From positions 1 through 64,000 of the forward strand of contig CABYZT010000002.1 in the NCBI GenBank assembly GCA_902523515.1: a stretch of 64,000 nucleotides of DNA. The letters are read 5' to 3'. Below the pieces are notes generated by a model. That model made no database searches. It had not been told where the DNA came from and worked only from the letters and a program-made list of their open reading frames with translations. Shown here in pieces: positions 53,727-55,726 of this stretch. The translations under genes and the position numbers were made by a program. Within the stretch, counting starts at the first letter, position 1. Every line of letters begins with the position of its first letter. Source of the DNA: an uncultured Pelagibacteraceae bacterium. GTDB lineage: Bacteria; Pseudomonadota; Alphaproteobacteria; Pelagibacterales; Pelagibacteraceae.

Positions 53727-54185
53727 TTAGTTTCTAGCTATATTTTTACTATTTAATTTATCTAACTCTATTACAGTCGGATTTTGTGCTGAATGCGGAT
53801 GTTCATTTCCTGCATAAATTTTTAATTTTGTTAATTGTTTTCTTCCCAATACTCCACCAGGTAACATTCTTTTAACTGCCATTTTTAAAGTTTCTCCAGG
53901 TTTTTTTTCATGAAGTTTCTCAGGTGTTGTAACTTTAATTCCACCTGGATGACCAGTATGTCTGTAATATTTTTTATCTTGAAATTTTTTTCCAGTAAAT
54001 TTTGCTTGTTCAATATTTTTAACAACAACAAAGTCACCATCATCCATATGAGGTGTGTATGTAGTTTTGTTCTTGCCTCTTATAATATTGGAAACAACAG
54101 TAGCTAATCTTCCAACTACTGCATTCTTCGCGTCTATTTCATACCAAGATGAATTTAATTGGTCTTTTTTAGTGAATTTTGTCAT
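53727..54185 (-). CDS. rplM: Ribosomal protein L13
   Basis: 152 residues. WYEIDAKNAVVGRLATVVSNIIRGKNKTTYTPHMDDGDFVVV and the PHSAQNPTVIEL C-terminus are diagnostic. It precedes rpsI by one base. A promoter-like sequence ends ten bases from the ATG, so the message may have almost no leader. The region upstream also holds the metY riboswitches on the opposite strand. Confidence 0.97.
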   Translation of the reverse strand: MTKFTKKDQLNSSWYEIDAKNAVVGRLATVVSNIIRGKNKTTYTPHMDDGDFVVVKNIEQAKFTGKKFQDKKYYRHTGHPGGIKVTTPEKLHEKKPGETLKMAVKRMLPGGVLGRKQLTKLKIYAGNEHPHSAQNPTVIELDKLNSKNIARN

Positions 54186-54195
54186 TGTGCGAGGA

Positions 54196-54223
54196 TTAAT
54201 ACTATTAATAATTACAAAGTCAA
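54196..54223 (-). promoter_or_regulatory. Putative rplM promoter
   Basis: On the minus strand TTGACT (54223-54218), a 16-base spacer and TATTAA (54201-54196). Transcription would start about four bases before the rplM ATG, and no Shine-Dalgarno is visible, suggesting near-leaderless translation. Confidence 0.4.
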
Positions 54224-54263
54224 TTTTATATTTAGCTTGAATTATATAGCTTATATGCTAGAA

Positions 54264-54312
54264 ATTAATTGCCGATTTGATCCTATTGCGGGCTTAAAAC
54301 TGCTAAAAAGGA
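54264..54312 (+). ncRNA. SAM-II-type riboswitch
   Basis: Upstream of the SAM-V element and metY. Its segments match the SAM-II pattern: GCC GATTT at 54271-54278, CCTATTGC at 54282-54289, GGGC at 54290-54293, and the conserved 3' GCTAAAAAGG at 54302-54311. It binds S-adenosylmethionine in the loop and pseudoknot. In Pelagibacter such an element precedes a SAM-V element before metY, which matches this layout. The pattern was judged by eye; boundaries are approximate. Confidence 0.75.
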
Positions 54313-54335
54313 AATTTCATAAAATTAATAAAATC

Positions 54336-54393
54336 GGTAGGCATTTGAACTGTATTGTGCGCCTAACATAATGTTGAAGCACTAAAAAAGGAG
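54336..54393 (+). ncRNA. SAM-V riboswitch
   Basis: The second SAM aptamer before metY. P1 is TAGGC (54338-54342) with GCCTA (54361-54365). The pseudoknot is GTGC (54357-54360) with GCAC (54379-54382). The loop carries ATTTGAACTGTATT and the 3' part ACTAAAAAAGGAG. The last bases GGAG (54390-54393) are the ribosome site of metY, five bases before its ATG. When SAM is bound the ribosome site is occluded, so high SAM lowers MetY synthesis. The sequence closely resembles the published metY SAM-V element. Confidence 0.88.
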
Positions 54394-54397
54394 TAAA

Positions 54398-55726
54398 ATG
54401 ACAAAAAGAAGAAATAACCCTGAAACTATAGCTATCCACGGTGGTGACTATAAAAGTGATCCAGCGACAAACGCCGTAGCTGTTCCAATTTATAGGACAA
54501 CATCATACCAATTTAACAACACAGAGCATGCTGCTAACCTTTTTGCCCTTAAAGAATTTGGTAACATCTATACTCGTATAATGAACCCAACAAATGATGT
54601 GTTGGAAAAAAGAGTAGCTGCACTTGAGGGTGGACTTGCATGTCTAACTGTTTCTTCAGGACAAACTGCCTCAACTTTTGCTGTATTAAATGTCGCTCAA
54701 GCAGGAGACAATATAGTTAGTTCAACTGATCTTTATGGTGGTACAGTATCTTTATTCACACATACACTTAGCAAACTTGGGATAGAGATAAGATATGCAG
54801 ATCCAAGTAATCCTGAAAATTTTGAAAAGTTAATAGATGATAAAACTAGAGCTTTTTACGGTGAAACCTTACCAAATCCATATTTAAGAGTGTTTCCAAT
54901 AAAGGAAGTTTCTGACATTGGAAGAAAATATAATATTCCACTAATAATGGATAACACAGCTGCACCAGTAATATGTAGACCAATTGAACATGGAGCTGCA
55001 GTAGTAATTCACTCACTTACAAAATATATAGGTGGACATGGTACAGCAGTTGCAGGAAGTATAGTTGATAGTGGTAACTTTGATTGGACCGCAGATCCTA
55101 AAAGACAACCTTTATTTAATGAACCTGATAATAGTTATGGTGGTGTAATTTGGGGAAAGGCTGTACCAGAACTAACTGGTGCCAATGTACCATTTGCAGT
55201 TAGGGCAAGAGTTTGTTTATTAAGAGATTTGGGATCAGCTCTGGCTCCAGATAATGCTTTTGCAATAATTCAAGGGCTTGAAACAGTTGCTTTAAGAATG
55301 AGACAACATTGTGCTAATGCTGAATATGTAGTTGATTTTCTTAAAAAGCATAAAGAAGTTACAAAGGTTATTTATTCTACTGAACATGATAAACCTATAG
55401 CTGATAGAGCAAAAAAATATCTTCAAGGTGGAAATGGACCAATGGTTGGTATCGAACTTAAAGGTGGTATTGAAGCTGGTAAAAAATTTATTGAGTCTTT
55501 AAAGATGTTCTATCACGTTGCTAATATTGGTGATGCTAGAAGTTTAGCAATTCATCCAGCAAGTACAACTCATAGTCAATTAAATGAGAAAGAACTAGCT
55601 GCATCAGGTGTTACGCAAAGTTATGTGAGACTTTGTATCGGTATTGAACACATCGATGATATTATTGAGGATCTTGATCAAGCATTGAATAAATCATCAA
55701 AAGGTAATTTAAAAGCTGTAAGCTAA
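54398..55726 (+). CDS. metY: O-acetylhomoserine sulfhydrylase
   Basis: 442 residues, PLP-dependent Cys/Met metabolism family. It makes homocysteine from O-acylhomoserine and sulfide. The PLP-binding Lys is in VIHSLTKYIGGHGTAVAG; YTRIMNPTNDVLEKRVAALEGG and RSLAIHPASTTHSQL are family signatures. The length and the insert around 245-265 fit MetY rather than MetB. Expression is predicted to fall with SAM through the tandem riboswitch in its leader. Homoserine comes from hom at 50719-52011. Confidence 0.95.
   Translation: MTKRRNNPETIAIHGGDYKSDPATNAVAVPIYRTTSYQFNNTEHAANLFALKEFGNIYTRIMNPTNDVLEKRVAALEGGLACLTVSSGQTASTFAVLNVAQAGDNIVSSTDLYGGTVSLFTHTLSKLGIEIRYADPSNPENFEKLIDDKTRAFYGETLPNPYLRVFPIKEVSDIGRKYNIPLIMDNTAAPVICRPIEHGAAVVIHSLTKYIGGHGTAVAGSIVDSGNFDWTADPKRQPLFNEPDNSYGGVIWGKAVPELTGANVPFAVRARVCLLRDLGSALAPDNAFAIIQGLETVALRMRQHCANAEYVVDFLKKHKEVTKVIYSTEHDKPIADRAKKYLQGGNGPMVGIELKGGIEAGKKFIESLKMFYHVANIGDARSLAIHPASTTHSQLNEKELAASGVTQSYVRLCIGIEHIDDIIEDLDQALNKSSKGNLKAVS

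Follow-up and report, generated by a model that had tools for sequence, protein, structure and literature searches.

The leader of metY in the window (the whole 64 kb stretch of DNA analysed here) carries a SAM-V riboswitch over the ribosome site and, at its 5' end, a second aptamer-like element. Homology of this upstream element to the SAM-IIs of SAR11 bacteria is supported by a covariance model of that lineage and by retained binding nucleotides, and it is predicted to bind SAM. The linker between the two contains a short anti-arm which, as both comparison of relatives and computation support, can pair with the P1 strand and the SAM-binding U tract of the upstream element. SAM-V before metY and SAM-II/SAM-V tandems linked by a terminator have already been published; the present pair differs from these in that no terminator was found and in its linker anti-arm.

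The metY leader and its SAM-V aptamer

A preliminary description of this DNA had placed two aptamer-like elements in series before metY at 54264-54397, the second over the ribosome site, and covariance searches bear out this layout and correct its coordinates by only a few bases (81.1 bits with RF01826 for the second element, 32.3 bits with the lineage model R1 described below for the first). The second element is a SAM-V riboswitch: cmscan of the 64 kb window against Rfam 15 matches RF01826 at 54330-54396 of the forward strand, Shine-Dalgarno included, with E 8.7e-12 and a score well above the cut-off of 41, as expected from that description and from the published SAM-V before metY. The alignment is full-length (model positions 1-66), with the P1/P2 pseudoknot, P3 and the 3' Shine-Dalgarno all present. 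As read from the forward strand, P1 pairs AGGC (54339-54342) with GCCU (54361-54364), P2 pairs GUGC (54357-54360) with GCAC (54379-54382), and P3 occupies 54366-54374; the P2 pairing is intact, in agreement with the earlier remark that the pseudoknot GTGC/GCAC is still paired. The Shine-Dalgarno reads AAGGAG and the metY ATG lies at 54398. At E<=1 this is the sole SAM-V in its genome (G000). Selective SAM binding is reported for the metY SAM-V of HTCC1062 in the available part of PMC6061858, which also gives the crystal structure of this RF01826 RNA from the same gene, and SAM binding is predicted for the present copy. By our own numbering, nucleotide 1 of the crystallised 53-nt metY RNA is the equivalent of A54339, directly 3' of the anti-arm; the crystallised RNA therefore lacks the anti-arm as well as the upstream element.

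The reading frame downstream (54398-55726, forward strand) encodes MetY, an O-acetylhomoserine aminocarboxypropyltransferase, which passes NCBIfam TIGR01326 (O-acetylhomoserine aminocarboxypropyltransferase/cysteine synthase) with 576.7 bits against a cut-off of 495.1. With the equivalog model 'homocysteine synthase' it reaches 580, short of the required 726. SAR11 MetY is counted among the methionine-producing enzymes in the portion of PMC5069961 at hand. The divergent neighbour is rplM, encoding ribosomal protein L13 (53727-54185, reverse strand; TIGR01066, 178.2 bits), and HTCC1062 shows the same rplM/metY order (PMC2704228, Table 1, as far as available). A possible -10 box, TATGCT at 54254-54259 of the forward strand, would place the transcript start at about 54266, just 5' of the SAM-II P1; we propose it from reading alone, as the hexamer was not picked by the consensus scan.

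The upstream SAM-II-type element

The upstream element spans 54263-54316 of the forward strand and appears to be a cryptic SAM-II-type aptamer. In a search of the 241-base neighbourhood at E<=10, RF01726 (SAM-II) aligns to 54265-54316 with 17.6 bits (cut-off 44) and RF00521 (SAM_alpha) to 54262-54327 with 15.3 bits (cut-off 36). Both scores fall below the cut-offs, so that Rfam alone supports SAM-V only; a check of the two elements with Rfam models, suggested in the preliminary description, thus succeeded for SAM-V and failed for SAM-II. Rfam also scores poorly the SAR11 SAM-IIs that are linked to a terminator: among 20 loci searched, the terminator-linked SAM-IIs listed with Rfam (L101, L111, L129, L130, L137, L144, L151, L152 and L155) reach 18.6-25.6 bits, under both cut-offs, and the SAM-IIs of L089, L122, L128, L134 and L150 (the bhmT leader of HTCC1062) have no Rfam listing at E<=5. 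Annotation by Rfam will therefore undercount them. Because of this poor performance we built the lineage model R1 from 14 terminator-linked SAR11 SAM-IIs, with no terminator-less leader included. R1 matches 54263-54315 with E 3.6e-6, the runner-up in the window scoring 14.9 bits. In the whole genome the element ranks second (E 6.7e-5), with the third match at 18.5 bits (E 0.27). The top match in the genome, at G000:C5:16340-16398 on the reverse strand (L232), is an ordinary SAM-II of the GCGC-P1 type with 49.8 bits, close 5' of an ORF read as metX. At E<=0.01, and among the 70 loci supplied to it, R1 recovered 20 of 21 terminator-less metY leaders (L088 was missed) and all four mmuM leaders; it matched none of the 35 leaders assigned to the class without either element and none of the four with SAM-V only.

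The element shares with SAM-II (RF01726 and RF00521) the core motifs, the layout of the P1/P2 pseudoknot and the lack of P3; it differs in its sub-cut-off scores, its short P1, its lack of a terminator and its position away from the ribosome site. According to the available part of PMC6061858, the SAM contacts in the metY SAM-V crystal include U8, U9, A18, U20, G21, U47, A48 and A50, the cores of SAM-II and SAM-V are closely similar, and the P3 hairpin is absent in SAM-II. In our own mapping onto these contacts the upstream element retains equivalents in UUU, AUUG and CUAAA: UUU at 54276-54278, within the motif AUUUGA, would correspond to U8-U10 of the SAM-binding third strand, and CUAAA at 54303-54307 to C46-A50. 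Sequence reading revealed no P3 hairpin in the element. Its P1 consists of three pairs only, between GCC (54271-54273) and GGC (54291-54293), and P2/P2a (54282-54311) joins CC 54282-54283 to GG 54310-54311 and GC 54288-54289 to GC 54302-54303. The outer pair of P1 is G-C in 89 of 89 distinct metY leaders and in 20 of 22 distinct mmuM leaders, with a compensated A-U in the other two. Nested folding gives the P2/P2a pairs a probability of 0.96-1.0 and P1 one of 0.0 at every transcript length, P1 being missing from such folds because it forms a pseudoknot with P2. The earlier identification of the first element as SAM-II thus stands on the SAR11 model and the retained binding nucleotides, and finds no backing in Rfam's own models.

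Terminator-less leaders and the linker anti-arm

A consensus scan of 54150-54450 found no terminator-like site, and the hallmark of the published tandems, an intrinsic terminator after SAM-II, was accordingly not found in that interval. In the accessible text of PMC9481103, SAM-II always lies 5' of an intrinsic terminator in the original 120 tandems, and in the published form of two-level control, as far as the sources go, SAM-II terminates transcription and SAM-V blocks translation. Stacked SAM-II/SAM-V elements are indeed known from Pelagibacter, as had been noted, but those described in the available sources are of the terminator type. With no terminator found between the aptamers, the proposal of two-level SAM control in the published sense is not supported.

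The distribution of this arrangement was surveyed in 297 genomes drawn from the family, in 190 of which SAM-V occurs at E<=0.001. The metY leaders were sampled by the MetY protein, independently of the RNA; MetY was matched in 255 of the 297 genomes, and 110 leaders were read, namely the 30 best loci and 80 picked down the MetY list, among the matches listed. A terminator-less pair of SAM-II-type element and SAM-V is present in 51 of the 110 (50 distinct sequences), and SAM-II, terminator and SAM-V in 18, of which 11 were recognised by script and seven by reading (L089, L130, L134, L142, L144, L145 and L147; R1 matched all three of those given to it). The rest comprise four leaders with SAM-V only (L099, L117, L118 and L121), two with SAM-II only and 35 with neither, one of which (L098) ends at a contig edge after 154 bases. 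In this classification 'no terminator' denotes a short linker by script together with no run of seven T in 111 distinct linkers; linkers of terminator-less leaders measure 17-27 nt, and a few, such as those of L081 and L087, contain six consecutive T. All 51 terminator-less metY tandems belong to the genus of the window; the terminator type occurs in genera g2, g3, g4 and g6, with one case (L089) in the window's genus. In the alignment of the 51 leaders TATTGC, GGC and GCTAAA, which lie outside the helix P0 described below, show a conservation of at least 97%, as does the arm, although the script used to select the 51 demanded these motifs in part (a looser script gave the same 51). Likewise, the invariance of the core across the 111 distinct leaders stems in part from the search patterns themselves, and for the MetY-sampled set the sampling is independent of the core patterns and the classing script is not.

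The SAM-V of L117, L118 and L121 is a variant whose third strand contains GTTTAAAC or GTTTGAAC, and these leaders lack both SAM-II and the anti-arm. L131 and L135 (genus g9) have a SAM-II-type element (R1, 33.6 and 31.1 bits) with no SAM-V seen. L151, L152, L155 and L158 are terminator-type SAM-II/SAM-V tandems from the window's genus, for which the script found no reading frame directly after SAM-V in the fetched stretch.

A pattern of the element core matched 54 of 141 genomes of the genus, and the reversed control pattern none of the 141. Most readable copies precede metY and a second group precedes mmuM, where leaders show the same layout with weaker linker pairing; a search for mmuM loci with organism names yielded seven loci only. 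In genome G026 the intergenic coordinates of metY, mmuM and bhmT match those published for HTCC1062 (PMC2704228, Table 1, as available), and its metY (L081) and mmuM (L149) leaders both carry the upstream element. The accessible parts of PMC2704228 and PMC5069961 give HTCC1062 metY and mmuM as SAM-V genes only, the latter naming SAM-II at bhmT and metX, and the available part of PMC6429828 holds nothing on the upstream element. More generally, we found no terminator-less pair and no SAM-II at metY or mmuM in the partial texts of the SAM-II/SAM-V literature. For bhmT of Ca. Pelagibacter ubique the SAM-II/SAM-V tandem is reportedly treated in Poiata 2009, where an earlier mention of the upstream element at metY or mmuM is possible.

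The anti-arm AAAUCGGU lies at 54331-54338 of the forward strand, flush against SAM-V P1, and is complementary to GCCGAUUU at 54271-54278, with which it forms a predicted helix, P0, whose 5' end is the GCC of SAM-II P1. This assignment draws on the minimum-energy fold, RNAduplex and conservation. The minimum-energy fold of the leader pairs 54269-54278 with 54331-54340, with GCCGAUUU/AAAUCGGU as core, and nested folding gives P0 a pairing of 0.97-1.0 as soon as transcription has passed 54338. Taken whole, the leader folds no better than shuffled sequence (z -0.91, with 39 of 200 shuffles equalling or exceeding its stability). The motif UYGGY stands flush 5' of SAM-V P1 in all 51 terminator-less metY tandems, that of the window included, and in none of the 22 other SAM-V leaders, the terminator-less class having been defined blind to the linker end. 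In RNAduplex the native linker pairs better than its own mononucleotide shuffles (p<0.05) in all 86 distinct metY leaders, in 3 of 3 unassigned ones and in 10 of 22 mmuM leaders; the other 12 fail to do so (L156, p=0.44). The probability that the arm's two C are paired to the end of the linker averages 0.87 against 0.03 in shuffles for metY (89 leaders including the three unassigned; lowest 0.02) and 0.34 against 0.01 for mmuM (22 leaders; lowest 0.00). Since the leaders share ancestry, which the shuffles do not take into account, these counts are not independent.

The mmuM linkers are complementary through unlike sequences (AAUUGGU, AUCAAUCUGC and AUCAAAUAAGC), and in L149, L221 and L226 (L225 repeats L221) ACC replaces GCC, with GGU in the P1 partner and likewise in the linker. 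A P0-like complement, 0-2 nt from SAM-V P1, is also found in 5 of the 18 terminator-type leaders (L101, L111, L122, L128 and L129), that of L101 pairing GCCA with UUGGC; the GCGC-P1 terminator type is without one. These metY tandems of other SAR11 genera (L101, L111, L122, L128, L129, L137 and others) share the gene and the order of aptamers with the window's leader, and differ in keeping the terminator. The 5' arm being nearly invariant, covariation in P0 is thin and involves few events: in a search of the genus, of low power and with HTCC1062 outside the draw, variant arms were found in 1 of 399 genomes for ACC and in 0 of 399 for CCAATTTG, and exchanging arms between leaders costs little energy (-8.55 kcal/mol when matched, -8.28 when swapped). 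By reading, the distance from the end of P0 to SAM-V P1 is 0-2 nt in terminator-less leaders despite linkers of 17-27 nt, and P0 overlaps SAM-V P1 by no more than 1-2 pairs, without conservation of the overlap.

Possible coupling of the two aptamers

We propose that the metY leader would operate with a SAM-II-type aptamer at its 5' end, SAM-V over the ribosome site and no intrinsic terminator between them, P0 serving as a latch that competes with SAM on the SAM-II and is relayed to SAM-V; we consider this explanation evenly poised between right and wrong. P0 and the SAM-bound SAM-II fold would be mutually exclusive because both need GCCGAUUU, and co-transcriptional SAM binding by SAM-II would be possible only before the anti-arm emerges. 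With plentiful SAM, SAM-II would keep its strand and leave the anti-arm free; with scarce SAM, P0 would form and lock SAM-II off. Given that P0 ends where SAM-V P1 begins, stacking on that P1, or a slight overlap with it, could relay the choice to SAM-V. As to the sign, it would make most sense for P0 to disfavour the SAM-V OFF fold, occupancy of SAM-II then helping SAM-V to close the ribosome site. This relay from P0 to SAM-V and translation, together with its sign, is the weakest step of the explanation, and folding gave it no support. In nested folding, which is blind to pseudoknots, accessibility of the Shine-Dalgarno is 0.51 with the SAM-II strands held out and 0.50 without, and SAM-V P1 in the full leader is hardly altered (0.02 and 0.0); with both nearly unchanged, no route from P0 to the output is shown. 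A more ambitious form of the proposal, which we advance tentatively and regard as somewhat doubtful, is a cooperative hetero-tandem in which a SAM-II-type aptamer without an expression platform of its own would set SAM-V folding via a conserved latch stacked on SAM-V P1, two classes with one ligand forming one device, at metY as well as mmuM, across many species of the genus to which the window belongs.

The main rival is simple masking, in which the aptamers are independent and each able to respond to SAM, the linker pairing is non-regulatory and masks SAM-II post-transcription, and SAM-V does all the work. It derives its weight from the bhmT tandem of Ca. Pelagibacter ubique, which resembles the window's leader in having a SAM-II-type element followed by SAM-V, a linker that can mask SAM-II and a sulfur amino acid gene 3'. 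There, as reported in the available part of PMC11508383 (Feng 2024), the linker masks SAM-II in the full-length RNA and SAM-V is still SAM-responsive in vitro, the masking being left unexplained. The bhmT linker differs in bearing a terminator hairpin and U run, and the bhmT SAM-II in its longer P1, whereas the window's leader has no terminator found, a 3-pair P1 and a short anti-arm flush to SAM-V P1. The lack of a predicted effect on the Shine-Dalgarno in nested folding also agrees with independence. However, a SAM-II without output should decay, and the 55 MetY-sampled terminator-less SAM-V leaders consist of 51 with a full SAM-II core and four without SAM-II, with no half-decayed form seen; moreover, the anti-arm is kept beside SAM-V P1, which masking alone does not need. 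We regard independence as unlikely.

Decay itself would be the history under another rival, according to which the upstream element is what remains of a decaying SAM-II of the terminator type, or is conserved merely as the 5' strand of P0. The reduction of P1 to three pairs and the sub-cut-off Rfam scores would fit a relic, but Rfam also misses terminator-linked SAR11 SAM-IIs, including that of HTCC1062 bhmT, and the conservation of TATTGC, GGC and GCTAAA, parts outside P0, equals that of the arm with the reservation on the script given above; we hold this reading to be very improbable. Scarcely less improbable, in our judgement, is continued control of transcription by SAM-II via Rho or pausing without an intrinsic terminator, with P0 as an anti-terminator-like partner. 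The majority of SAM-IIs are transcriptional according to the accessible text of PMC6061858, and the 18 terminator-type relatives keep a terminator at the same place, five of them with a P0-like complement; yet the scan of 54150-54450 offers no terminator-like site, and there would be little space for a Rho site in linkers of 17-27 nt.

SAR11 bacteria rank with the most numerous cells of the ocean. Regulation of methionine-making enzymes by SAM riboswitches in Ca. Pelagibacter ubique is described in the available part of PMC5069961, and if the cryptic SAM-II works at metY and mmuM, binding data on the metY SAM-V aptamer alone would cover only part of the leader. The proposed latch would also give a concrete, mutable explanation of the puzzling masking of SAM-II by the linker seen at bhmT in the accessible text of PMC11508383. 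A natural test case for SAM-V-independent output might be found in the mmuM leader L211 (G337:C1:14652-15032), which has a SAM-II-type element and no SAM-V in the 155 bases read.
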